NCBI RefSeq assembly: GCF_004137855.1
Contig: NZ_QBKB01000002.1
Span: 817,518 to 881,517, forward strand
Origin: Methanohalophilus profundi
GTDB lineage: Archaea; Halobacteriota; Methanosarcinia; Methanosarcinales; Methanosarcinaceae
Direction of reading: 5' to 3'
DNA length: 64,000 bases
The translations under genes and the position numbers were made by a program. This document shows positions 5,825 to 22,346 of the stretch, in pieces; within the stretch, counting starts at the first letter, position 1; each line of letters starts with the position of its first letter. The notes below the pieces were generated by a model. That model saw nothing but the letters and a program-made list of their open reading frames with translations. It had not been told where the DNA came from and did not search any database.

Positions 5825-7691
5825 GTGGTTAATGTGGATAATTTAGAATTTAATGCGCCCGTGAGCAAATCAAAAATATTTGAGGATATGATCCAGCAGT
5901 CCACAGATGCCATAATATATACTAATCCTGATTTTACCATTAATTTTGTAAACCGAACTGCAGAAGAGATGTTCGGATGGACCTTGCCTGAAATAAAAGG
6001 CAAACCAATAACAATCCTCCATGAGCAAGAGCTGACCTCGGAACAGAAAAAAGAAATGTTCTCAAACCTCTATTCAGGAGAGCCTCATGAGTTTGAAGGG
6101 ATCAGGAAGCGCAAGGATGGAAGTACTTTTTATTGCCAGATAAAAATATCACCTCTTTTTACAGAAAAATCCAGAATATACGGATATCTGGGGAAAATAA
6201 GGGACATCACTGAAGAAAAACAGAATGAAGGCAGTTTGCTTAAAGAAATCGACCTTTTAACAGGCCTAATCGGCACTGCCAGAGTGATTGTGGCTGTTCT
6301 TGACAGGCAGGGAAAGATAGTATATTACAATCCCCATATGGAAAAACTCTCCGGCTACGAACTTAAGGAAGTAAAGGGAGAAGATTGGATTTCCAGATTC
6401 ATACCTGAAAAAGAAAAGGAGAGGACCAGGTCTGTATTCAAAAAGGCGATTGCCGGCCATCCCAATGAAGGCAATGTCAACCCTATTGTCACAAAAGAAG
6501 GCAATGAAGTCATTGTCGATTGGTACGACACGGCATTAAAAGATGATGAAGGAGAAGTAACCGGCCTTCTTGCCATCGGAAATGACATTACACAAAAAGC
6601 CGAAGCTGAAGAAAAGTTAAAGACGATACATGAAAACATGCCCGGTGGCATCCTGATGATAGATCAGGATTACATCATAAAAGATGTAAACTACCGTACA
6701 TGTGAGATTACAGGTTATAAAAGGGAAGAACTCGTCGGACAACTATGTGACATCGTTTGCCCCAAGGGATCCACCTCAAAAAATGCCCCATATGGGGAGA
6801 GGGACAGGAAGGATTCAGGGGAATGGATACCACAATAAAGTGCAAAAATGGAATAAAAAAACCCATATTGAAAAATGCACAGGAAATTTCCATAAAAGGG
6901 GATATATACATTCTGGAAATGTTTCAGGATATCTCAGAACGCAAAAATGCCGAAGAAAATGCCATCGAAGCAAAAAAGACTGCAGAAGAAGGGAACCAGG
7001 CCAAAAGTGAATTTCTGGCAAACATGAGCCATGAATTGAGAACTCCTTTAAATTCAATCATTGGATTTTCCGATATCCTGTCAAAAGAAGTAAAAGGTGA
7101 GCTCAATGATAACCAGAAGAAATATGTGTCCAACATTGCCAAAAGCGGCAATCACCTGCTAAGTCTGATAAATGATATTCTCGATATTTCAAAGATCGAG
7201 GCCGGACAAGAACAACTTGAATACAGTAGTTTTGAGCTGCATGAAGCATTGGATGAAATCAGCATACTCATCAAACCTCTCACGTCCAAAAAGAATATAG
7301 GCCTGCAAATGGAGTTACCTTCTGAAGATATCAGGGTTTATGCCGACAGGAAAAAGTTCAAACAGATTATGTACAACCTGCTGAGCAATGCAGCCAAGTT
7401 CACCCCGGATAAAGGAACAATTACAATTATTGCCAATCAAGAAAAGGATAAATTGAAAGTTGCAGTCTCGGACACCGGCATAGGCATACCCGAGAGCGAG
7501 CAGGCTACAATTTTTGAACCTTTCCAGCAGGCCAAATCCTCCAAATCCAGTGAACATAAGGGCACCGGACTGGGACTTCCCTTGTCAGGGAACTCGTGGA
7601 AATGCACGGCGGACAGGTCGGACTGAAAAGTGAGGTTGGTAAGGGAAGTACATTTACCTTCACGATCCCGGATAAACCGACTGCGGATTGA
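5825..7691 (+). pseudogene. PAS-domain sensor histidine kinase, two frameshifts
   Basis: Reading across two shifts gives a kinase of about 620 residues: three PAS domains (about 15-125, 140-255, 265-370), a HisKA domain with the phospho-acceptor His in [14 protein letters not shown], and an HATPase domain with [16 protein letters not shown] and GTGLGLPL. The frame changes once at the A-run 6778-6783 and again near 7580-7586. Adding one base at each place restores a continuous protein ending at the TGA at 7689. As written, the first frame stops at 6838 and the second at 7626. GTG 5825 or the nearby GTG 5834 is the likely start. It is cytoplasmic, with no membrane helix. Signal and partner are unknown. 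Confidence 0.85.
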
Positions 7692-9361: not shown

Positions 9362-9433
9362 GGAAACCTGATCAGGTAGATCAAATGGACTCTAGATCCA
9401 TTCAGCCGGGTTAGATTCCCGGGGTTTCCGCCA
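9362..9433 (+). tRNA. pylT: tRNA-Pyl (anticodon CUA)
   Basis: A 72-base tRNA with encoded CCA. The acceptor arm GGAAACC (9362-9368) pairs with GGTTTCC (9423-9429), followed by discriminator G9430. The anticodon stem is six pairs (AATGGA/TCCATT) around the loop CTCTAGA, with CTA at 9392-9394. The small D-loop, short variable region and the T arm CCGGG/CCCGG with a TTAGATT loop match known tRNA-Pyl. It reads UAG codons as pyrrolysine when charged by PylS, encoded just downstream. Confidence 0.97.
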
Positions 9434-9514
9434 GTAAAATAGAAAGTGACGGTCTGGATATGTTGCAAAATTAGATGCCTCAGCAAATGTAGATGTCAAA
9501 AGTCGCCTCTATAG

Positions 9515-11805
<2,291 letters not shown>

Positions 11806-11806
11806 A

Positions 11807-12889
11807 ATGAAAACGATATGTCTGATTGGGGGCAAGCTACAGGGCTTCGAGGTTGCTTATCTTGCCAGGAAATCCGGGATACAGGTACATCTGATCGACA
11901 GGAAAAACCAGCCTCTGATACGTAATAGTGTGGATGAGCATTTTTGCTTCGATATTACAGAAAGACCAGAAAGGCTCATAGAATTATCCCGCCACTCAGA
12001 TGCCATAATTCCGACAAATGAAAACCTTGATACCCTTCTCTTTTTGAAAAAAATAGAATCAGAACTATATTGCCCTCTTCTTTTCGATTTTGCCGCCTTT
12101 CATACCAGTATGGACAAAAGGCTTTCAAGGGAATATTTCAAATCGATCGATATACCCATTCCTTCAGAAAAACCCAAAAATCCACCTTATTTTGTAAAAC
12201 CCCCATGTATGAGCAGCAGCAAAGGGGCACGCATAATTGACAACGACAGTGAAATGGCAAACATTGATGATTCGATGGTCATTGAAGAATATGTACCCGG
12301 ACCGGTAGTTTCACTGGAAGTCGTGGGTGACGGGAGGAATTTCATGATCGGTCACCAGACACAGGTCCATATTGACCGGGAACATGATTGCCACAGGGTC
12401 ACCCCGATGGAGACAGATGCAAATTTCAGGGAAATCGCATACCTGCTGGCCAGCAATCTGTGCCTTAAAGGAATCATGGATGTGGAAGCAATACTATCCC
12501 CTGAAGGAATCCGTGTTATTGAGATTGATGCACGGTTTCCCAGCCAGACACCTACCGTAGTATATCACAGTGTTGGTGTAAACCTGCTCGAATGGCTAAT
12601 GGGAACTTTTGCAGGAAAAATAAAGGAAAATAATCCTCTTTCTGTTGGCAAACAATGTAACTATGAACACCTGATGGTATCTGATGGGAAACTTATCCCT
12701 GTTGGAGAACATATGCTTTCAGGCGGTGATGACTACCGGCTATTCCATGAATCAAACGGGTTGGAAATATTCAAATGTAAGGGGAAAAGACCAATCTATA
12801 CCCTGATATCCAGTGGCACGACCCGGCATGAAATGTGTGATAAAAGAAAAAAAGCAATTCAACTCATCAAATCCGATATGAAGCAATAA
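11807..12889 (+). CDS. pylC: 3-methylornithine--L-lysine ligase
   Basis: A 360-residue ATP-grasp ligase that joins methylornithine to the epsilon-amine of lysine, the second step of pyrrolysine synthesis. N-terminal fold MKTICLIGGKLQGFEVAYL, ATP-grasp centre around SSSKGARII and VIEEYVPGPVVSLEV, and the metal-binding IEIDARFPSQTPT. The start at 11807 is one base after the pylB amber codon and gives the usual N-terminus; an in-frame ATG at 11717 lies inside pylB and is not used. Translation is probably coupled to pylB. Confidence 0.95.
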   Translation: MKTICLIGGKLQGFEVAYLARKSGIQVHLIDRKNQPLIRNSVDEHFCFDITERPERLIELSRHSDAIIPTNENLDTLLFLKKIESELYCPLLFDFAAFHTSMDKRLSREYFKSIDIPIPSEKPKNPPYFVKPPCMSSSKGARIIDNDSEMANIDDSMVIEEYVPGPVVSLEVVGDGRNFMIGHQTQVHIDREHDCHRVTPMETDANFREIAYLLASNLCLKGIMDVEAILSPEGIRVIEIDARFPSQTPTVVYHSVGVNLLEWLMGTFAGKIKENNPLSVGKQCNYEHLMVSDGKLIPVGEHMLSGGDDYRLFHESNGLEIFKCKGKRPIYTLISSGTTRHEMCDKRKKAIQLIKSDMKQ

Positions 12890-12902
12890 AAGGAGGATTA
12901 AT

Positions 12903-13682
12903 ATGGCACTACTTACACCACAAGACCTAGAAGGACTTACAAAACAGCTTGAGTGCAATAACAATACTATCAAAAAAGCAACCGGAATGGACATTGCTGA
13001 CATATGCAAACAAATATACGGCACAACTCTTGACGGAGAAAAGGTAGGTATTGTGCCCATGACTTCCGGCAACGGTATCATTACCAATTTTTCGTCATCC
13101 CTGCTTACGATAACCGAATATTTCGGCCTTGATGGTGCTGTAACCGAGCACCCTGACGTTACCGGGTACTATGAAGCTGTTTCCAGTGATGCCGACATAA
13201 TACTGATGGCAGATGACCACATTTTTATTGCACATAATATGAGAAACGGCAAAATTGCAACCAATCATGTATGCACCGGAGTGGTTTATGCTGAAATCGC
13301 CTCCCGTTACAAATATGCCGACTCAAAAGATATACTTGTAATCGGCCTGGGAAGAGTTGGTTATGCCGGAGCACAACATCTCGTAAAAAGGGATTTCGAT
13401 GTGTATGCCTATGACCCCGACCGGGAAACTATGGAAAAGGCCCGCAGAGAACTGGGCATCATACCCTATGATCCCGAAGAAGAACACAAGTTCTCCATGG
13501 TCCTGGAGGCTACACCAAACCCCAACACGATCTCTGAAGGCATGGTGGCAGAAAGATGCCTCGTGTCCACACCGGGAATCCCCTGTGGTTTACCTGAAGA
13601 CATTGGGGAAAGAAACGAAATCGATCTGGTAATGGAACCTCTGATGATTGGCGTGGCTTCAATGCTTTATGCGGTAATGTAA
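12903..13682 (+). CDS. pylD: Pyrrolysine synthase, oxidative ring closure
   Basis: A 259-residue dehydrogenase that oxidises 3-methylornithyl-lysine so that it cyclises to pyrrolysine. The C-terminal Rossmann domain has the NAD-binding VIGLGRVGYAGA at about residues 147-158. The N-terminal helical domain is typical of PylD. An AAGGAGG Shine-Dalgarno sits 6 bases before ATG. It completes the gene order T-S-B-C-D. Transcription probably continues from pylC, 13 bases upstream. Confidence 0.95.
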   Translation: MALLTPQDLEGLTKQLECNNNTIKKATGMDIADICKQIYGTTLDGEKVGIVPMTSGNGIITNFSSSLLTITEYFGLDGAVTEHPDVTGYYEAVSSDADIILMADDHIFIAHNMRNGKIATNHVCTGVVYAEIASRYKYADSKDILVIGLGRVGYAGAQHLVKRDFDVYAYDPDRETMEKARRELGIIPYDPEEEHKFSMVLEATPNPNTISEGMVAERCLVSTPGIPCGLPEDIGERNEIDLVMEPLMIGVASMLYAVM

Positions 13683-13754
13683 GGGAAAGAGAACCCCTGC
13701 GATAAAAACAGGCATATTGATAGCGCTTTTTCATGAAAATTGAACATGAAAAGA

Positions 13755-13762
13755 TATATATA
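13755..13762 (+). promoter_or_regulatory. TATA box for mtbA
   Basis: TATATATA about 65 bases upstream of the mtbA ATG, in the 140-base gap after pylD. It predicts a 5' leader near 40 bases carrying the AAGGAG Shine-Dalgarno at 13809-13814. mtbA can thus be made independently of the pyl operon, which fits a highly expressed catabolic enzyme. Confidence 0.55.
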
Positions 13763-13822
13763 TGCTAAATGCGTAGCCAGATTACCTTTTAGAATAAAAA
13801 TAAGTTTTAAGGAGTAAAGGTT

Positions 13823-14851
13823 ATGGTTGAATATACACCCAAAGAGAGATTAGCACGCGTATTTGCAGGTAAAGAAGTAGACAGGATGCCTGCTATCTGT
13901 GCCACCCAGACAGGAACAGTCGAACAGATGGATGCAGTAGATGCTTACTGGCCAGAAGCTCATGAAGACCCTGTAAAAATGGCAGCATTGGCAGAAGCAG
14001 GACACACAGTTGTAGGATTTGAAGCAATACGTGTTCCTTTCGACATCACAGCAGAAGCAGAATTTTTCGGATGCGGAATCAAGCCAAGTACCAAGGAACA
14101 GCAGCCATCCGTAATCAGCCACATTGTCAGCAAGATCGAAGACGTCGAGCAATTCGAAGGATATAACGTTGAAGATGGCAGGATCGGAAATGTATCCAAG
14201 GCAGTCAAGATCCTCGCAGACAAATACGGTGACGAACTTCCAATCATCGGCAGTATGATCGGACCATTCTCCCTCGCACAGCACCTTAACGGTGACTCCT
14301 GGTTCATGAACATCATGACCGACCAGGAATTTGGCCTCAAACTCATGGAATTCACCACTGAGTTCTGCACACAGTACGCCCTCAAGCAGGTCGAGAACGG
14401 TGCCGACACCTTTGCAATCATTGATCCAACAGCCAGCTACCAGCTTATTGGTGCTGACTTCTACAAGACTTTCGTAGTTCCGTTCCACCAGAAGATTGTT
14501 GAAGCACTCCACGAAAAAGGTATACCATCCATCCTCCACATCTGCGGAGACACAACAAACGGACTTGCAATCATGGAAACCTGCGGCGTAGACGCAATCA
14601 GTGTAGACCAGAATGTCGACCCTGCAGCAGCAGTTGAGAATGTGGACAAGGCCCTCATATTAGGTAACCTCGACCCTGTAAGTGTCCTCTGGAACCAGGG
14701 CGAAGACAATGTCGAAGGTGTAAAGGAAGAATCCAAGAACGTTCTCGATGCAGGAGTACAGCTTCTCGCACCGGGTTGCGGTATTGTGAGCAAGACTCCT
14801 ACCCAGAACCTTCAGGCAATGATCGAAGCAGCAAAGAACTGGACATACTAA
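13823..14851 (+). CDS. mtbA: Methylcobamide:CoM methyltransferase, methylamine type
   Basis: A 342-residue zinc enzyme of the uroporphyrinogen-decarboxylase fold that moves the methyl group from a methylated corrinoid protein to coenzyme M. The zinc ligands are visible as His-x-Cys in ILHICGDT (about residue 237-239) and Cys in LAPGCG (about 316). The N-terminus ([22 protein letters not shown]) and [11 protein letters not shown] resemble MtbA more than the methanol enzyme MtaA, and the neighbouring pyl genes favour a methylamine role. The codon choice (many C- and G-ending codons) looks optimised for high expression. MtaA-type use cannot be fully excluded. Confidence 0.88.
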
Positions 14852-14876: not shown

Positions 14877-15013
14877 ATAACTCCTATATTTGTTTGGCTT
14901 TTTACAGACCAGGAATGCTTACTGCAATATTTTTTTATTACATTATTCCATAAGATATTATTAGCTTATTATATGCAGCATAAGAGGTTTTCTATAATAT
15001 CGTTTTGAGAAAG

Positions 15014-15023
15014 TTATATATAA
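15014..15023 (+). promoter_or_regulatory. TATA box for the Fsr-like operon
   Basis: TTATATATAA about 45-50 bases upstream of the first gene of the operon at 15067. It leaves a leader of about 20-25 bases containing GAGGA before the ATG. It is the only strong promoter-like element seen before the run of overlapping genes 15067-21012. Confidence 0.5.
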
Positions 15024-15066: not shown

Positions 15067-15459
15067 ATGAAAATCTGCATAACATCAAAAGGCAATGAAC
15101 CCGATTTTGATATTGAGCCCCGTTTTGGTAGAGCACCTTATTTCATAATAACAAATACCGAAACCGGAGAATTTGAAACAAAGGAAAACACTGCAGCGGG
15201 TGCTACCGGGGGTGCCGGCATACAAGCTGCCCAGGACGTCGCAAAAATGCAGGCAGATGTTTTGATCACCGGCAATGTGGGACCTAATGCCTACGAAGTC
15301 CTTTCCACAGCAGGAATAGAAGTCGTAACTACTTCCGGCGTATCAGTAAAAGAAGCAGTTGAACAGTATAATAAAGGTACTCTGGAAAAGGTATCCGGTC
15401 CAACTGCCAAGGCACATGCAGGCATGGGTCGCGGACAGGGCAGAGGGGGAAGAAAATGA
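15067..15459 (+). CDS. Dinitrogenase iron-molybdenum cofactor family protein (NifX/NifB-C like)
   Basis: A 130-residue protein of the NifX/NafY/NifB C-terminal fold, which in known members binds Fe-S cofactor precursors. Typical features are KICITSKGNEPDFDIEPRFG (conserved N-terminal strand and RFGRAPYF), the loop KENTAAGATGGAGIQAAQ and TSGVSVKEAV. The C-terminus is Gly/Arg-rich (GMGRGQGRGGRK). It heads the operon leading to the Fsr-like reductase and overlaps the next gene by ATGA. No nif genes are present, so a role in another metallocofactor is more likely (inference). Confidence 0.85.
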   Translation: MKICITSKGNEPDFDIEPRFGRAPYFIITNTETGEFETKENTAAGATGGAGIQAAQDVAKMQADVLITGNVGPNAYEVLSTAGIEVVTTSGVSVKEAVEQYNKGTLEKVSGPTAKAHAGMGRGQGRGGRK

Positions 15460-15821
15460 AAGTATGTATACCGGCAACCGAAAATAGTGGAATAGATTCA
15501 CCTGTAGGGCAGCACTTTGGTAGAGTCCCTTATTACACAATATACGACAGTGAGACTGGCAAGGTAGATGTTCTGGAGAATACCAGTGAGCATATGGGTG
15601 GCGTTGGATTGCCTCCTGAATTACTCGCAAATGAAAGAGTTGAAACCATGCTCTGTGGAAGTCTAGGGTGGAAAGCCGTACAGTTGTTCGAACAGTTCGG
15701 CATCAAAGTTTTTGTAGGGGCACAGGGAAGCGTCAATGATGCCATCGAGGACTGGAAAAGTGACAGGCTCGAGCAAGCTGGTGCAAACAACTCCTGCAGT
15801 GGACATGACCACGAACACTGA
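15456..15821 (+). CDS. Second dinitrogenase-cofactor family protein with His tail
   Basis: A 121-residue paralogue of the preceding protein, same fold: SGIDSPVGQHFGRVPYYTIY at the N-terminus, then ENTSEHMGGVGLPPELL. The end (CSGHDHEH) is a likely metal-binding tail absent from its neighbour. The start codon overlaps the preceding stop, so the two are made together, possibly as a heterodimer. The reductase gene begins 10 bases later. A function in Fe-S or siroheme cofactor handling for that enzyme is inference from context. Confidence 0.85.
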   Translation: MKVCIPATENSGIDSPVGQHFGRVPYYTIYDSETGKVDVLENTSEHMGGVGLPPELLANERVETMLCGSLGWKAVQLFEQFGIKVFVGAQGSVNDAIEDWKSDRLEQAGANNSCSGHDHEH

Positions 15822-15830
15822 TGTGATTAT

Positions 15831-17747
15831 ATGGTAGAAAATAAATGGTTCCTGAAAGATGCTATTGTAGATACAGGCATGTGTACCCTTTGTGGGGCAT
15901 GTGCTGCTGTTTGTCCGTATGATCTTATACGTTTTGATGAAAACGGACCATATCTTAAAGATGAATGCTACAGGAATGGCGAGGGAGCATGCAAAGATGT
16001 ATGTCAGCGGGTAATGACCGATGCTTCCCGGATAGCACTTAATACTTTCAATTTCAAGGCAAAACCTCCCAGTGTATTGGGACAATACGAAAAAATAGTT
16101 TCCGCAAGAGCAACAGATGAGGCTCTCGCAGAAAAAGGACAGGATGGAGGCGCTGTCTCATCCCTTATTGCATATTGTATGGATAAGGGACTTATAGACG
16201 GAGCCATAACAACAGCTGGTTTTGCCAAACCTGCAGCAAACATAATTGGAAAGAGGGAAGAAATAACAACATCTCAGGGAGCAAAATATTCAACCGTCCC
16301 ATTATTATCTACTCTCAGAAATGAAAAAGATAATTTCAACAAAGTAGCAGTCGTAGGAACTCCATGTCAAACCTATGGCGTCCGTAGAATGCAATATTTC
16401 AACGGGCTTAACGTGCACCCTGTAGAAAAAGGAATGGATGGAGAATTTGCCAATAATCCTACTATTGAATACACGATTGGCCTATTTTGCATGGAAAATT
16501 TCAATTATCACAAACTATCCGATTTCCTGGAAAAACAGGGAATCAAACTTAACGATATTAAAAAATATTCCATTCAACTTGATGAAATGATTATAACCAC
16601 GGATGAGAAAAATATTGAGATCTCCCTGAAGGACCTTCAAGATTGTGTTTGGGATGGCTGTAAGATCTGCAGGGACGCAGTATCAAAGGTCGCTGATATT
16701 TCTGCAGGAAGCTCCGGGTCGTCAAAGGGGTGGACTACATTGATAGCCCGCAATGCCAAAGGATTAAAATTGCTTAATGATGCAAATGAAGCGGGTTATA
16801 TTGAGATTTCAAATGAAGTAGATATTGAAATGACAAAAGAACTGGCACAATTCAAAATGAGAAAGTTCCGTCATGAACTTGACAAACGTCTCAATTCAGA
16901 GGAAAAAGTCAGCTACTACTGGGTTCGTGACTATCCGGGAGTAAGACCCGAAGCAAAAGGAACAAACTTTGTCAAGATAAAAACCGATTCCGGAATTACC
17001 ACATACAAATATCTGGAAAAAGTTGCCAAACTTGCCGAAAAATATGGAGACGGTACACTGGAAATGACTACAAGGAAAAGTATCGAAATCCAGGGTGTCC
17101 CGGGGGAAAACATCGATGATCTTATGGCAGAAATATACGCTGAAGGATTGAAGACAATCGGAATGGGATATGCTACAGCATGCCCGGGAATGGATTATTG
17201 TCCCGAAGGGCTTGTGAGTACAAAGGAACTGGCCAACAAGCTAACAATGCATTTTGCTCAAAAATTGACACCCCATAAAATGAAAGTGGGGATTGCCGGT
17301 TGTCCGAATAGCTGTGTCCGTGTAAGAGAGCATGACATCGGCATAATGGGCCAGCTCAGACCGGTTATCGATGAAACAAAGTGCACAGGCTGTGGAAGAT
17401 GTACCGAACTTTGCAAGTTTAATGCCATATCCATTGAGGGCAAAAAGGCAGTTATAAACCGGGATCTTTGTGGAAATTGTGGATGGTGTGTCAGAGGATG
17501 CCCCCATGAAGCTGCCCTGGAAGATAAACGCGGTTACTCTTTATGGATAGGAGGTAACGGTGCACGCCGTCCTACAGAGGGAGTATTGATCAAATCATTC
17601 TGTGACGAGGAAGAAATCATAGAGACGATCAATGATATAGCTAGAGCATTCATAAAATACCGCACAGATCCCGGTAAAGAAAGGTTAGGCAATATTATGG
17701 ACAAAATCGGCCAGGGAACTTTTATCAAAGAAATCCTGAAAAACTGA
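15831..17747 (+). CDS. fsr: F420H2-dependent sulfite/nitrite reductase (Fsr-like fusion)
   Basis: A 638-residue fusion. Residues about 15-60 hold ferredoxin-type cysteines (CTLCGACAAVCP), about 80-330 an FrhB/FpoF-like F420H2 oxidase (KGQDGGAVSSL, VVGTPCQTYGV, CVWDGCKICRD), and about 360-600 a dissimilatory-type sulfite reductase: siroheme-cluster cysteines C-x5-C (ACPGMDYC) and C-x3-C (GCPNSC), with an inserted ferredoxin (CTGCGRCTELC and CGNCGWCVRGC). This is the Fsr layout, near the 620 residues of the Methanocaldococcus enzyme. The Methanosarcinales/ANME homologues (group II) are a separate branch, one of which is reported to reduce nitrite. The physiological substrate here is open. Confidence 0.9.
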   Translation: MVENKWFLKDAIVDTGMCTLCGACAAVCPYDLIRFDENGPYLKDECYRNGEGACKDVCQRVMTDASRIALNTFNFKAKPPSVLGQYEKIVSARATDEALAEKGQDGGAVSSLIAYCMDKGLIDGAITTAGFAKPAANIIGKREEITTSQGAKYSTVPLLSTLRNEKDNFNKVAVVGTPCQTYGVRRMQYFNGLNVHPVEKGMDGEFANNPTIEYTIGLFCMENFNYHKLSDFLEKQGIKLNDIKKYSIQLDEMIITTDEKNIEISLKDLQDCVWDGCKICRDAVSKVADISAGSSGSSKGWTTLIARNAKGLKLLNDANEAGYIEISNEVDIEMTKELAQFKMRKFRHELDKRLNSEEKVSYYWVRDYPGVRPEAKGTNFVKIKTDSGITTYKYLEKVAKLAEKYGDGTLEMTTRKSIEIQGVPGENIDDLMAEIYAEGLKTIGMGYATACPGMDYCPEGLVSTKELANKLTMHFAQKLTPHKMKVGIAGCPNSCVRVREHDIGIMGQLRPVIDETKCTGCGRCTELCKFNAISIEGKKAVINRDLCGNCGWCVRGCPHEAALEDKRGYSLWIGGNGARRPTEGVLIKSFCDEEEIIETINDIARAFIKYRTDPGKERLGNIMDKIGQGTFIKEILKN

Positions 17748-17758
17748 AGTGAATAACT

Positions 17759-18583
17759 ATGAAAATAACTGTGGCAAGCGGGAAAGGAGGAACTGGAAAA
17801 ACAACAGTTGCTGTTAATTTCTTCCTTTCTGTTCCAAAAACCAGCCTCCTTGACTGTGATGTGGAGGAGCCAAATTCCAATCTGTTTTTACACAATGATC
17901 TTGAAAAAGTAAAAGAGGTTACTATACCAGTTCCTGTGATAGATGAGCAAAAATGCGAGCATTGCGGCAAATGTGCTGATTTTTGCAATTACAATGCGCT
18001 TGCAGCACTACCACAAAAAGTGATGGTTTTTTCCGATCTCTGTCATGGCTGTGGAGGCTGTAGCCTCGTCTGTCCCAATGATGCTATCAGTGAAACAGGA
18101 CGCAACATAGGGAACATAGAGAGATCCTTTTCAGGACAGTTCCATACAGGACTTCTGAATATAGGAGAAGCAATGGCATCACCCCTGATAAAAGAACTCA
18201 AGAACTATGCAGGCGAAAATACAGTAATAATGGACGCTCCCCCGGGCACCGCATGTCCTATGATCACAACAGTTGAAGATACTGACTATTGCATCCTTGT
18301 TACCGAACCCACACCTTTTGGACTCAATGATCTGAAACTAGCAGCGGAAGTTGTCCGGGAAATGAAAATTCCTGCGGGAGTGATAATCAACCGTGCAGGA
18401 GTAGGGGATGGAGGTGTTGAAGAATATTGCCAGCAAGCCGGTTTACCAGTAATAATGGAAATTCCCTATGACCGCAGAATAGCTGAAGCTTATTCAGAAG
18501 GCATACCTTTTGTTGAAACAATGCCGCAGTGGAAAGAAAAATTCCTGCAGATGTTTGAAACTATAAAGGAGGCTGTTAGATGA
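17759..18583 (+). CDS. MinD-superfamily P-loop ATPase with inserted ferredoxin domain (first)
   Basis: A 274-residue ATPase. The deviant Walker A is intact (SGKGGTGKTTVAVNF, with the signature Lys). Residues about 62-105 hold an inserted two-cluster ferredoxin (CEHCGKCADFC, CHGCGGCSLVCP). Switch II is seen as MDAPPGTACPM, and VTEPTPFGLNDL follows. COG1149-type proteins are believed to assist Fe-S or metallocofactor assembly by analogy with Mrp/NBP35. It follows the reductase by 11 bases and overlaps the second ATPase by ATGA. Confidence 0.88.
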   Translation: MKITVASGKGGTGKTTVAVNFFLSVPKTSLLDCDVEEPNSNLFLHNDLEKVKEVTIPVPVIDEQKCEHCGKCADFCNYNALAALPQKVMVFSDLCHGCGGCSLVCPNDAISETGRNIGNIERSFSGQFHTGLLNIGEAMASPLIKELKNYAGENTVIMDAPPGTACPMITTVEDTDYCILVTEPTPFGLNDLKLAAEVVREMKIPAGVIINRAGVGDGGVEEYCQQAGLPVIMEIPYDRRIAEAYSEGIPFVETMPQWKEKFLQMFETIKEAVR

Positions 18584-19443
18584 AACAACTCACAGTAATC
18601 AGTGGCAAAGGAGGCACCGGCAAAACCACCCTCACCTCAGCCTTTGCAGCTCTTGCGGAAAATGCCACCATTGCAGACTGTGATGTCGATGCTGCAAATA
18701 TGCACCTGCTGCTGCAACCTGAAATAATAAAAACCCATGATTTTACCGCATTACCTACCGCAATCATACACCCTGAACAGTGCACAGGATGTGGGCTATG
18801 TGTTGACCATTGCAGATTCGGGGCAATAAAGGAAGGTTTCAAAATCGATCCGTACATATGTGAAGGTTGTGGAGTATGCGAGTATGTCTGCCCTGCCGAT
18901 GCGGTGACAATGGAATATAATAAGTGCGGGGAAGCCTATGAATCTAAAACCCGGTTCGGACCGCTTGTTCATGCCAAACTCGGAATAGGGGAAGAAGCCG
19001 GAGGAAAACTTGTCACACTTGTCAGGGAAATTGCAGAAAGGGTAGCTAAGGAGAACAATTCAGATACAATAATCATAGACGGACCGCCAGGTACCGGTTG
19101 CTCGGTAATTGCAGCTCTTGCGGGTGTGGACATTGCCCTTGTAGTCACCGAACCCACTGTAGCCGGAATCCATGATCTTAAAAGAGTGATAGAAGTGGCA
19201 GAACACTTCGATATACCATCTCTGGTTTGCATAAACAAATCCGATATAAACGACAGCAAAAGAAAAGAAATAGAAACTTTCTGCACCCAGAAAGGGATTA
19301 AAATTGCAGGCAAAATCCCTTATGATACAACCCCTACCGAGGCAATGGTACAGGGAAAAACAATTGTGGAATATACCGACAATTCTTTTGCAAAATGCGT
19401 CATAGAAGTATGGGAAGAAGTAAAAGAAGAGATGCAATCATGA
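18580..19443 (+). CDS. MinD-superfamily P-loop ATPase with inserted ferredoxin domain (second)
   Basis: A 287-residue paralogue of the preceding ATPase: Walker A SGKGGTGKTTLTSAF, ferredoxin insert CTGCGLCVDHC and CEGCGVCEYVCP (about residues 68-110), switch II IDGPPGTGCSV, and VTEPTVAGIHDL. Two such proteins encoded together probably act as a heterodimer, since MinD-type ATPases dimerise around ATP. Both neighbours overlap it by four bases, so expression is coupled. Cofactor delivery to the Fsr-like reductase is a reasonable guess from the operon. Confidence 0.88.
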   Translation: MKQLTVISGKGGTGKTTLTSAFAALAENATIADCDVDAANMHLLLQPEIIKTHDFTALPTAIIHPEQCTGCGLCVDHCRFGAIKEGFKIDPYICEGCGVCEYVCPADAVTMEYNKCGEAYESKTRFGPLVHAKLGIGEEAGGKLVTLVREIAERVAKENNSDTIIIDGPPGTGCSVIAALAGVDIALVVTEPTVAGIHDLKRVIEVAEHFDIPSLVCINKSDINDSKRKEIETFCTQKGIKIAGKIPYDTTPTEAMVQGKTIVEYTDNSFAKCVIEVWEEVKEEMQS

Positions 19444-20012
19444 AATGTGCAACCTGTCAGGAGAAGGAATGCCGCAACGGGAAAGATTGCAGCGGTGTTG
19501 CAGAAGATATCGAATATACCGGTGAAGACCTCGACTGTATGCAGGTTGCAGCTGCTATCGAAGGGCAATACTATATGCAAAAAACCCGGCTGGAAGAACT
19601 TATCCTGTTTGCCAGACAAATGGGTTACCAAAAACTGGGAATTGCTTTTTGTATCGGGCTGGCGAGTGAAGCCGCAACTATCACCCGAATCCTGGAAAAG
19701 GATTTTAAGGTTTATTCCACCTGCTGCAAGGTCTGTGGTATCCCGAAGGAAAAGTATGAACTTGAAAAGATCCAGCCGGATCAATTCGAGGTTACCTGTA
19801 ACCCGAAGGGACAGGCCCTCTTACTTGCCAAAAAACAAACCGAGCTCAATATCATCGTCGGCCTCTGTATGGGCCATGACATTATATTTACCCGCCACAG
19901 TGAATCCCCGGTAACCACCCTGATTGTCAAGGATCGGGTGCTTGCACATAATCCTGCAGGTGCAATCTATTCCGGATATTACCTGCGTAAAAAATTCAAT
20001 ATGGAAGATTGA
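19440..20012 (+). CDS. DUF1847 cysteine-rich protein
   Basis: A 190-residue protein with an N-terminal cysteine cluster (CATCQEKECRNGKDC) and further cysteines in the middle (STCCKVCGIPKEKYELEK, EVTCNPKGQ) and in GLCMGHDIIF. This matches DUF1847, a family of unknown function often found with corrinoid or Fe-S proteins. The start at 19440 overlaps the previous stop; a longer in-frame extension into the ATPase gene is not supported. Metal or cluster binding is likely from the cysteines but unproven. Confidence 0.8.
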   Translation: MKCATCQEKECRNGKDCSGVAEDIEYTGEDLDCMQVAAAIEGQYYMQKTRLEELILFARQMGYQKLGIAFCIGLASEAATITRILEKDFKVYSTCCKVCGIPKEKYELEKIQPDQFEVTCNPKGQALLLAKKQTELNIIVGLCMGHDIIFTRHSESPVTTLIVKDRVLAHNPAGAIYSGYYLRKKFNMED

Positions 20013-20014
20013 AT

Positions 20015-20707
20015 ATGGAACTTACCGTTGTTTATGATAATAATGCAGCCGAGGGTTTCCATGCAGGATGGGGATTTGCCTGCCTGATTCGACAGGGAGA
20101 CACTACGCTTCTTTTTGATACGGGTTGGAACGGACCCGCCCTGCTGGAAAACCTTCAAAATGTGGGCGTGAAACCCTCTGACATAGACATACTTATCCTA
20201 TCTCACCAGCACTGGGATCATATAGGAGGATTGTCTGCAATATTACATAATTCAGATGCCCTGGAAGTGTATGTACCCAGGGCATTCTCCCCAAATCTCA
20301 AAAAGGAAATAGCCAGATATGCCCATCTTATAGAAGTCACAAAATCCCGGCAGGTCTGCAAGGGAGTTTTTACCACCGGTCAACTGGGAAGCCGCATAAA
20401 AGAACAATCCCTTATCCTGCAATCTGAAGATGAATTGTATATTATAACCGGATGTGCCCATCCGGGACTGGGGAAAATAATCGATAACGCTGCAAAAATG
20501 GGTAATGTCACAGGTGTACTCGGAGGACTACACGACTTCAATGACATGGACACATTGGGCAAACTTTCATACATAGCAGCCGGGCACTGCACATCCCACC
20601 TGGATGAAATCAGACGCAAATATCCGGATAGATTTGCATACATCTATGCGGGATACTCCGTAGACATATGGCAATATGACAAGAAATATATCCTAAGATT
20701 TCTATAA
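20015..20707 (+). CDS. Metallo-beta-lactamase-fold hydrolase
   Basis: A 230-residue protein with the metal motif H-x-H-x-D-H in LSHQHWDHIGG and later ligands in TGCAHPG and GGLHDFND. It resembles the archaeal MJ0888-like group sometimes named after dihydropterin-ribofuranosylaminobenzene phosphate synthase, whose role in methanopterin synthesis is not settled for all members. ATG 20015 is preferred: a GGAAG lies 7 bases before it, whereas the alternative TTG 20009 has no room for one. It is the sixth gene of the operon. Confidence 0.82.
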   Translation: MELTVVYDNNAAEGFHAGWGFACLIRQGDTTLLFDTGWNGPALLENLQNVGVKPSDIDILILSHQHWDHIGGLSAILHNSDALEVYVPRAFSPNLKKEIARYAHLIEVTKSRQVCKGVFTTGQLGSRIKEQSLILQSEDELYIITGCAHPGLGKIIDNAAKMGNVTGVLGGLHDFNDMDTLGKLSYIAAGHCTSHLDEIRRKYPDRFAYIYAGYSVDIWQYDKKYILRFL

Positions 20708-20727
20708 TGTTTGATGGGAGGATACGT

Positions 20728-21012
20728 ATGTTATCAAAAATACCAATTGACCTTGATGCTGTAGAGGATGAGAACATAGATAAGGAAATCTTAAGGGCTG
20801 GCATTATAGCCGAACTTGATGCTATCAACCTCTATGAACAGATGGCCGAACTTGCTTCCAGCGAGGAGATCCGGGCAGTGCTGCTAGACATTGCAAAGGA
20901 AGAAAAAACCCATGTGGGGGAATTCCAGACCATGCTGCTTGAATACGATGATGAGCAGGGAGATGAACTGGAAGCAGGCAGGAAAGAAGTTGAAGAAGAT
21001 ATCCTTAAATAA
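20728..21012 (+). CDS. Small ferritin-like (encapsulated-ferritin type) protein
   Basis: A 94-residue half-ferritin with two helices: ELDAINLYEQMAELASSEEI carries the first Glu, and LLDIAKEEKTHVGEFQTMLL gives the E-x-x-H pair. It strongly resembles the ferritin-like domain attached to archaeal encapsulins of Pyrococcus. No encapsulin shell gene is visible in the window. The start at 20728 is chosen for its GGGAGGA 6 bases upstream; an ATG at 20707 has none. Iron storage or detoxification for the Fe-S-rich operon is inference. Confidence 0.78.
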   Translation: MLSKIPIDLDAVEDENIDKEILRAGIIAELDAINLYEQMAELASSEEIRAVLLDIAKEEKTHVGEFQTMLLEYDDEQGDELEAGRKEVEEDILK

Positions 21013-21049
21013 AGGAACTTAAAGACTTTACCAATCCGGAGGTGGAGTG

Positions 21050-22346
21050 ATGGAAATTATACCCACCGTCGGTCTTGATCCTTTTTTTATTTGATTTTTT
21101 GCAAAAACTCATCCTGTCTCTGATGATAGGTATAATCATCGGGATAGAAAGAGAACATCGAAGAGCAGAACATCCGGTTTTTGCAGGTGTGCGTACATAT
21201 TCCCTGGCTGCTGTCACAGGCATGCTGGCAACAATTGCAGGAAAAACAATCGGCAATGATATTATAGTTGCTGCAGCCTTTTTGATAATAGCATGTAGTA
21301 TTGCCCTGATATACCGTACCTACACAATGCGAGGCAAACTGGGCATGACAAGTGCCCTGTCTTTATTCTGCACCTTCCTGCTGGGAATACTGGTAGCAAA
21401 TGGTAATTACCTGTTTGCTATTGCCGGTGGAGTTGCAATAACTTTCCTGACTATTGAAAAACGCCCCCTCCATTCTTTTGCCCAGAACCTTTCCAATGAA
21501 GATATCCTGAACAGCCTTCAGTTCCTTGCCGTGGCTTTCGTCCTGTATCCCCTCGTACCTGATGAAGAACTATGGGGTATTGTGGATCTTAAAGCCACAA
21601 TCCTTATTGTCGTACTTGTGATGTTCATTGGATTTATCAGTTACATTTCCCTCAAACGCTTTGGAGCAGGAGGAGGTATACCCTATTCTGGATTGTTGGG
21701 AGGATTCGTGAGCAGTGAAGCCACTACTGCTGCCCTGGCATCAATAGCAAAGGAAAAAGCCGGACTTGTAAATGCCTTTTACATCGGCGTCCTTTTATCC
21801 AACCTTTCTATGTTCATCAGTAACCTGGTAATTGCCCTGATTGTAGATAATTCAGGCAAGACTACCCTGAATATGTTACCTCCGCAATTATTGATGATAC
21901 TGGTAGTAATAGGGATTTTTTGGAAAAACAAGAACCTATCAAAGAAAATGGAAGAAACTCTTGACATTGGTTCACCCTTTGCCCTGAAGCCTGCACTGCG
22001 TTTTGGAGCAATCTTTCTGATATTACAGGTTTTTGCAACTTTTGCCAACGAATACGCGGGAACATACGGAACATATGTAACTGCGCTGGGAGGTGTGGCC
22101 AGCAGCTCGGCAGTAACAGCTTCCATGGCAAGCCTTGCAGTGAAGGGAGAAATTTCATACATCGTGGCTGCTGAGACCGCAGTTTTTGCCGGTATTGTGA
22201 GCACACTCAACAAGATCACCTACATCCGGATTGCAGGTGCTTTGGAACTTGAAAAAAGAGCCCGTATGACATTGATACTGTTATCTCTTGTGGGAATTAT
22301 CGGGCTTGTTGTATGGGCATATGCAGATGTTAAACCTGTTTTCTGA
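21050..22346 (+). pseudogene. MgtC/SapB-like DUF4010 membrane protein, one frameshift near the start
   Basis: The main frame (from about 21075) codes for about 420 residues with an N-terminal MgtC-like domain (LMIGIIIGIEREHRR, FAGVRTYSL) and a C-terminal DUF4010 region, with ten or more membrane helices and GGFVSSEATTAALAS and GGVASSSAVTASMASL repeats. The only good start, ATG 21050 with a CCGGAGG upstream, is in another frame. Removing one T from the seven-T run 21082-21088 joins them and gives a normal N-terminus. The role in cation or envelope homeostasis is not known. Confidence 0.75.

Follow-up and report, generated by a model that had tools for sequence, protein, structure and literature searches.

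A probable archaeal iron-sulfur gene module resembling ORP and IssA systems and its recurrent link to one set of group II Fsr reductases

Introduction

Several described systems come close to an operon that we analysed in the archaeon Methanohalophilus profundi, in a stretch of 64,000 nucleotides (contig NZ_QBKB01000002.1, positions 817,518 to 881,517 of the forward strand; hereafter the window, in whose own numbering coordinates are given). The ORP (orange protein) complex of Desulfovibrio vulgaris includes Orp3, Orp4, Orp5, Orp8 and Orp9/MrpORP, and the ferredoxin-bearing proteins Orp3 and Orp4 receive their Fe-S clusters from MrpORP (PMC6345978). IssA of Pyrococcus furiosus stores thioferrate (PMC5524996), and two proteins of the IssA clade are increased in Methanococcus voltae grown on FeS2 (PMC8516115, PMC9431491). 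The third relative is Fsr, a fusion of an F420H2 oxidase and a siroheme reductase. The Arg residues that bind sulfite in group I Fsr are replaced by Lys and Gly in group II (PMC6286981, PMC10229431), which is expressed in methane-seep archaea (PMC6286981). FsrII of ANME-2c (ANME, anaerobic methanotrophic archaea), the single group II enzyme to have been tested, catalyses the F420H2-dependent reduction of nitrite, not of sulfite (PMC9295563), and Methanohalophilus mahii is among the organisms with Fsr homologues (PMC9295563). In some Methanococcales a group I fsr lies within a nitrate operon (PMC13381448), which is another case of an Fsr recruited into an operon. Statements taken from cited papers hold for the parts of each paper that were covered.

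The operon consists of eight co-directional genes on the + strand (15067..21012), and its open reading frames (ORFs) and domain matches bear out the gene set and the domains named in the initial annotation. The first two genes encode NifX-domain proteins: N1 (15067..15459; PF02579, E 9e-23), of the MTH1175/ORP/IssA type and with a Gly/Arg-rich cationic tail, and N2 (15456..15821; PF02579, E 1e-19), with a Cys/His tail (CSGHDHEH). They are followed by a group II Fsr-like F420H2 oxidase/siroheme reductase (15831..17747), by two MinD-type ATPases of the ParA/CbiA type, MA (17759..18583) and MB (18580..19443), each with two 4Fe-4S ferredoxin motifs, and by a Cys-rich DUF1847 protein (19440..20012; PF08901, E 2e-51). 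The last two genes encode a predicted hydrolase of the metallo-beta-lactamase (MBL) fold (20009..20707, with a start at TTG 20009 or ATG 20015) and a half-ferritin with a rubrerythrin/EncFtn-like domain, similar to encapsulin cargo (20728..21012; 5n5e, E 9e-22; 2e0z, E 6e-21).

The operon shares with the ORP complex a paralogous pair of ferredoxin-bearing MinD-type ATPases (MA and MB, 36% identical, likened to Orp3 and Orp4 by architecture and not by direct sequence comparison), and one-domain NifX-fold proteins clustered with that pair. It differs by having two NifX proteins, DUF1847, MBL, the half-ferritin and a guest Fsr. An ORP complex is a physical assembly with a Mo-Cu-S cluster. The operon lacks a gene for a fused Mrp-NifX protein, its best protein having scored only 54 bits against the 450-bit cut-off of NF041136, and for this reason we do not class it as an ORP complex. 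N1 shares with IssA the PF02579/IPR003731 domain; it also has a basic Gly-rich tail, but one of only 21 residues that lacks the long aromatic and Pro-rich parts of IssA (PMC5524996). By its content the module resembles an ORP/IssA-like set.

Results

Most modules lack Fsr

Matches to MB at E<=1e-40 were found in 109 of the 185 genomes of the order (a few perhaps to its paralog MA), DUF1847 in 111 and Fsr in 46. We compared 115 distinct MB loci, a sample that excludes the window, includes two ANME-1 loci, was drawn partly via Fsr and contains many short stretches. Within 8 kb of MB these loci have MA (113), N2 (92), N1 (84), DUF1847 (53), MBL (45), the half-ferritin (7) and Fsr (16), the last count overstating the link because of the sampling via Fsr. 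The other 99 have no Fsr within 8 kb in the available stretch, and 71 of these extend at least 5 kb to each side of MB. When only the 76 loci that extend 5 kb or more in both directions are considered, a filter that removes 11 of the 16 Fsr-linked loci, MA is present at 75, N1 or N2 at 73, DUF1847 at 36, MBL at 31 and Fsr at 5. The core, made of two NifX proteins and two ferredoxin-bearing ATPases, often with DUF1847 and MBL, is a free-standing module. An earlier survey of 132 Methanosarcinales genomes found IssA homologues in 110 (PMC8351635), which agrees with a module that often occurs without Fsr.

In two congeners, G105 and G110, the genes run N1-N2-MA-MB-DUF1847-MBL-half-ferritin between the same flanks as in the window, and Fsr is absent. 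At the site that Fsr occupies in the window, their N2 stop and MA start are separated by 10 nt. The MA of the window is 97 and 99% identical to theirs, and N2 is 92 and 90% identical. Fsr is also missing at this site in the more distant congeners G107 and G111. Since Fsr-less operons lie between the same flanks in congeners, Fsr is the variable element, and the variable site is compatible with either gain or loss of Fsr.

The initial annotation had offered two readings, a set that serves Fsr or a separate metallocofactor pathway. The former holds insofar as the link recurs in one set of Fsr, called IIa below, but it fails to account for a module that mostly occurs without the enzyme (99 of 115 MB loci, as well as G105 and G110). 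The latter was the better half, with the addition that Fsr was recruited into the pathway. A set accessory to Fsr only was rejected, because the module is mostly found without Fsr, including in intact operons of congeners.

In one Fsr set the link is recurrent

The closest solved structures to the Fsr of the window are those of group I, and a quick tree of 67 rows placed it in group II, apart from group I, on starred branches. This tree was built after the removal of duplicates and of ORFs of 550 aa or less, and 21 of its rows are unlabelled owing to short flanks. The protein is a single chain of 638 aa (FrhB/FdhB, NIR_SIR and Fer4 domains) that fuses an FrhB-type F420 oxidase to a siroheme reductase with the C-x5-C and C-x3-C motif, and contains several Fe-S motifs. 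All 50 group II rows have Lys382 and Lys384, where all 9 group I rows have Arg. The Gly replacement falls in a gap-dependent stretch of our alignment and rests on the published comparisons (PMC6286981, PMC10229431).

We coined the labels IIa and IIb for two sets within group II. Set IIa is the one nearest to the window, with 66-72% identity outside the window genus within the order, and includes Methanococcoides, ANME-3, genera of family f3 (ANME-2a type), Methanolobus and others, as well as Methanofastidiosia/Methanomicrobia rows at 62-66%. Set IIb, at 54-59% identity, has 20 rows: 18 form a starred clade with members from family f4, ANME-1 and some of family f3, and two of GoM-Arc1 type branch separately. 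Some of these clade names are those that we presume to apply. All IIa rows, whether linked (22) or unlinked (8), have Lys416, where at least 95% of the 20 IIb rows have Gln.

The tested ANME-2c enzyme would be a member of IIb, to judge by taxonomy and not by sequence. Like the Fsr of the window, it fuses FrhB-type and siroheme reductase parts and has Lys for the group I Arg at two positions; it differs in belonging to a set whose ANME-2c-type loci (family f4, one member of which is titled ANME-2c) have an AsnC/Lrp-type regulator and no core module. The name sulfite reductase given in the initial annotation is doubtful for group II Fsr, as the tested enzyme reduces nitrite (PMC9295563).

Fsr was scored as linked when at least two module genes lay within 8 kb of it. 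This is the case in 22 of 28 IIa genomes, against 0.38 expected and a maximum of 6 in 200,000 simulations under a null model of uniform placement that was computed from a hand-entered table and ignores relatedness. All genomes are linked in the window genus (4 of 4, window included), Methanococcoides (9 of 9), ANME-3 (4 of 4) and family f3 (5 of 5). Some scores depend on the rule. G092 and G094 were scored as linked on N1 and an efflux/NifX fusion alone, and G008 was scored with one module though absent from the list of MB matches. Conversely, Methanolobus G124 has DUF1847 and an opposite-strand N1, enough for a looser rule, yet was scored as unlinked, and two Methanolobus genomes retain DUF1847 and MBL near Fsr despite failing the strict rule. 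Two genomes with partial IIa sequences are outside the 28: G012, which by its contig and identity is apparently the same as the linked L173, and G077, whose 3-kb contig holds no gene of the module. The initial annotation had warned that genes that rarely accompany Fsr elsewhere would leave only a chance transcript; in this subclade they accompany it in most genomes, and the excess over the null counters such an origin. The recurrent link hints at a functional partnership.

On the named contigs, N1, N2, MA and MB were not seen at any of the 13 group I or the 3 Methanothrix Fsr loci (several with short flanks), nor at 12 of 12 f4 Fsr loci (many of them short), and f4 genomes can hold the module elsewhere (L099). 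In ANME-1 the module is convergent to Fsr at 2 of 5 loci, both from one genus, and missing at the other three.

Other genes are found near these Fsr. The AsnC/Lrp-type regulator is divergent from fsr at 12 of 12 f4 loci (L063-L065, L068-L073, L076, L077, L079), one of which also has MBL and a radical SAM gene near Fsr (L077) and another a CGGC gene (L063). At the IIb locus of G009 (L074), a single cation-efflux/NifX fusion gene lies within 8 kb of Fsr.

Linked modules do not form a single clade

The module label requires five changes on the 67-row Fsr tree. On the 54-row MA/MB tree, the Fsr-linked rows require ten changes, seven of them forced by starred branches, with the proviso that a few f3 and ANME-3 rows scored as unlinked sit on short contigs and have an undefined true state. 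Approximately unbiased (AU) tests, on groups that were chosen after inspection of the trees and that include close Fsr-less kin of linked rows, rejected a single clade for the modules of all linked genera (p 2e-6) and a clade of the linked modules of the window genus and Methanococcoides (p 0.0004). The grouping of ANME-3 Fsr with other Methanosarcinaceae Fsr was also rejected (p 9e-7), and ANME-3 Fsr groups with f3. By these trees the Fsr-linked modules belong to more than one lineage, not to a single clade.

A probable iron-sulfur theme

The structure matches of N1 are MTH1175 (1eo1, E 8e-22) and ORP (2wfb, E 2e-18). Its tail of 21 residues has an isoelectric point (pI) of 12; among 82 homologues, the tail has a pI >9 in 49 and Gly >25% in 35. 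N2 matches 1t3v and 1o13 (E ~6e-16) and, more weakly, ORP (E 2e-5). The DUF1847 proteins have an invariant Cys pattern across 28 rows and a predicted alpha/beta fold (pLDDT 86), and MBL matches 7dck (E 1e-35) and TM1679 (3h3e, E 2e-12). A stretch of 72 residues in the half-ferritin is similar to 5n5e and 2e0z, which we take to be the cargo domain of an encapsulin. Unlike the EncFtn half-ferritins that it resembles in sequence, it comes without an encapsulin shell: PF04454 had no match in its own genome, which is about 90% complete. An Mrp/NBP35 match lies about 50 kb from the operon in this genome, and at the 115 other MB loci the genes up to 8 kb away from MB include Mrp/NBP35 (51 loci), DUF134 (50) and NifU (9). 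Iron-sulfur handling is the best-supported candidate theme of the module, because of the matches of N1, these neighbours, the cation-efflux/NifX fusion described next and the literature on ORP and IssA.

Two further families recur around the module. A CDF cation-efflux transporter with a C-terminal NifX domain (e.g. L097:6781-8013) is near 37 of the 115 MB loci, where it often sits between N2 or Fsr and MA. DUF169 proteins are near 31 of these loci and are frequent near both Fsr and modules (L053, L055 and the Methanococcoides loci).

Operon structure and surroundings

A predicted TATA/BRE-like promoter box (GAAAGTTATATATA; 15009..15022, + strand) lies about 50 nt 5' of the first gene; it is retained in 5 of 8 aligned genomes, window included, and has a diverged form in the other three. 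The genes were initially described as joined by four-base overlaps, which are secure at three of the seven junctions (N1/N2, MA/MB and MB/DUF1847). Fsr has gaps on both sides, of 9 nt towards N2 and 11 nt towards MA, and the DUF1847/MBL overlap depends on the TTG at 20009, since the ATG at 20015 gives a 2-nt gap. The mini-ferritin was correctly recognized, but its start is more likely the ATG at 20728, behind GGGAGG, than the 20707 first proposed; in congeners it begins 36 nt past the end of MBL (L033, L034) or overlaps MBL (L035). Since the window encodes tRNA-Pyl, TAG stops might have been read through; none of the eight genes ends in TAG, and a fusion of the genes by read-through was ruled out.

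The pyl locus, with tRNA-Pyl, and then an mtbA-like methyltransferase gene lie 5' of the operon (9362-14851), and an MgtC-like gene lies downstream (about 21048-22346); the names of the pylS/B/C/D-like ORFs and of the mtbA-like and MgtC-like genes are those that we presume to apply. Close to a T-run at the start of the MgtC-like gene, its frame is apparently disrupted relative to congener L081, by a sequencing error or a real change. Genes similar in size to those of the pyl locus and the mtbA-like gene lie beside the Fsr-less module in congeners and in Methanococcoides. A gene that by eye resembles PAS/histidine kinases is split into two overlapping frames (5825-6838 and 6757-7626), by a frameshift or an error.

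An association between Fsr and the module was not found in the open-licence literature of PubMed Central (PMC), as covered by the titles and abstract openings listed and by selected main texts. The main texts of PMC9295563 and PMC6286981 do not mention gene neighbours, operons or gene clusters, and that of PMC9012536 does not mention MinD, NifX or DUF1847. PMC3448663 has "operon" and "gene cluster" once each in its main text. In the parts covered, the genus survey PMC6491703 names one to two nitrite/sulfite reductases and neither Fsr nor NifX, and the paper on the genome of M. mahii (PMC3017947) contains no term for Fsr, NifX or nitrite/sulfite reductase.

Discussion

Our results suggest, with a probability that we put at about 0.55, that a free-standing archaeal Fe-S (metal-sulfide) module has recruited an F420H2-dependent siroheme reductase, and that together they would serve detoxification and the storage and rebuilding of clusters. 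The locus is likely to be an Fe-S/iron stress operon into which an F420H2-dependent oxyanion reductase was recruited. The NifX-domain pair N1/N2 would hold anionic Fe-S units, the ferredoxin-bearing ATPases MA and MB would move them at the expense of ATP, and the half-ferritin would take up free iron. The guest Fsr would draw on F420H2 to clear an oxyanion that is harmful to Mcr and to Fe-S centres and that, by the evidence so far, is nitrite. A single promoter could thus respond to a single stress both by detoxification and by the storage and rebuilding of clusters. Fsr may also be a client of the module, which would not have evolved for it.

Several observations weigh against this recruitment. 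The role of nitrite is taken from an enzyme of set IIb, where the module is lacking and from which the linked IIa enzymes differ at 20 fixed positions, and a survey of Methanohalophilus interprets the nitrite/sulfite reductase of this genus as protection from sulfite (PMC6491703). By the strict rule the link is missing in Methanolobus (0 of 4) and in two further genera (0 of 1 each), and N1, N2, MA and MB were not seen at 3 of 3 Methanofastidiosia/Methanomicrobia Fsr loci (several with short flanks). The simplicity of the null model also counts here. Finally, the number of separate origins is uncertain, because some AU groupings were not rejected (ANME-3 with f3 modules, p 0.079; ANME-3 with Methanococcoides modules, p 0.47) and the groups were chosen post hoc.

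The link might instead reflect a direct partnership, in which the substrate of Fsr IIa comes from the module itself (ferric iron-sulfide stored by N1, or polysulfide) and F420H2 drives the release of iron and sulfur. The basic Gly/Arg tail of N1, the replacement of Arg by Lys in the substrate pocket of all 50 group II rows, the Lys416 of linked IIa enzymes at a position where IIb has Gln, and the confinement of the link to one Fsr set all fit this explanation. Yet Lys416 is also found in the unlinked IIa enzymes, the tail of N1 is short, the thioferrate role of N1 is putative, and we know of no precedent for an Fsr that reduces iron-sulfide or polysulfide; we regard it as possible but improbable. 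We give slightly less credit to the more specific proposal that Fsr IIa is an F420H2-driven mobiliser of the metal sulfide stored by the module, in a store, reduce and deliver operon assembled more than once. It is less probable still that the NifX proteins and ATPases are a maturation set dedicated to this Fsr, loading or protecting its Fe-S and siroheme centres. The several Fe-S motifs of the enzyme, the tight co-directional placement and the recurrent link would be expected of such a set, but 99 of the 115 MB loci and the operons of G105 and G110 do without Fsr, and the core module was not seen at the group I and f4 Fsr loci, many of them short. The production of ANME-2c FsrII with siroheme in Methanosarcina acetivorans (PMC9295563) points the same way, weakly, because most listed Methanosarcina-type genomes (g13) have an MB match of their own.

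The remaining explanations do not involve a shared function. Fsr may have spread by recombination inside homologous modules, which would provide shared flanks. The grouping of ANME-3 Fsr with f3 suggests transfer, but in the window Fsr sits between genes native to the genus, as seen in the near identity of MA and N2 to those of Fsr-less congeners, and the arrangement in ANME-1 is convergent; we consider this hitch-hiking quite unlikely. The idea that Fsr entered the window genus along with its neighbours was rejected, since these flanks are native. That the operon is a functionally meaningless chance transcript is the least credible explanation of all: most modules lack Fsr and 6 of the 28 IIa genomes are unlinked, but 22 linked genomes far exceed both the expectation and the simulated maximum, and we rejected it on this excess.

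The job of group II Fsr is unsettled, and its link with an ORP/IssA-like module provides a genetic lead on it and on the handling of Fe-S in archaea. Because congeners with and without Fsr otherwise share the same operon, the link is directly testable. If Fsr IIa did mobilise metal sulfide, a route to store, reduce and deliver iron and sulfur would be found within one archaeal operon.

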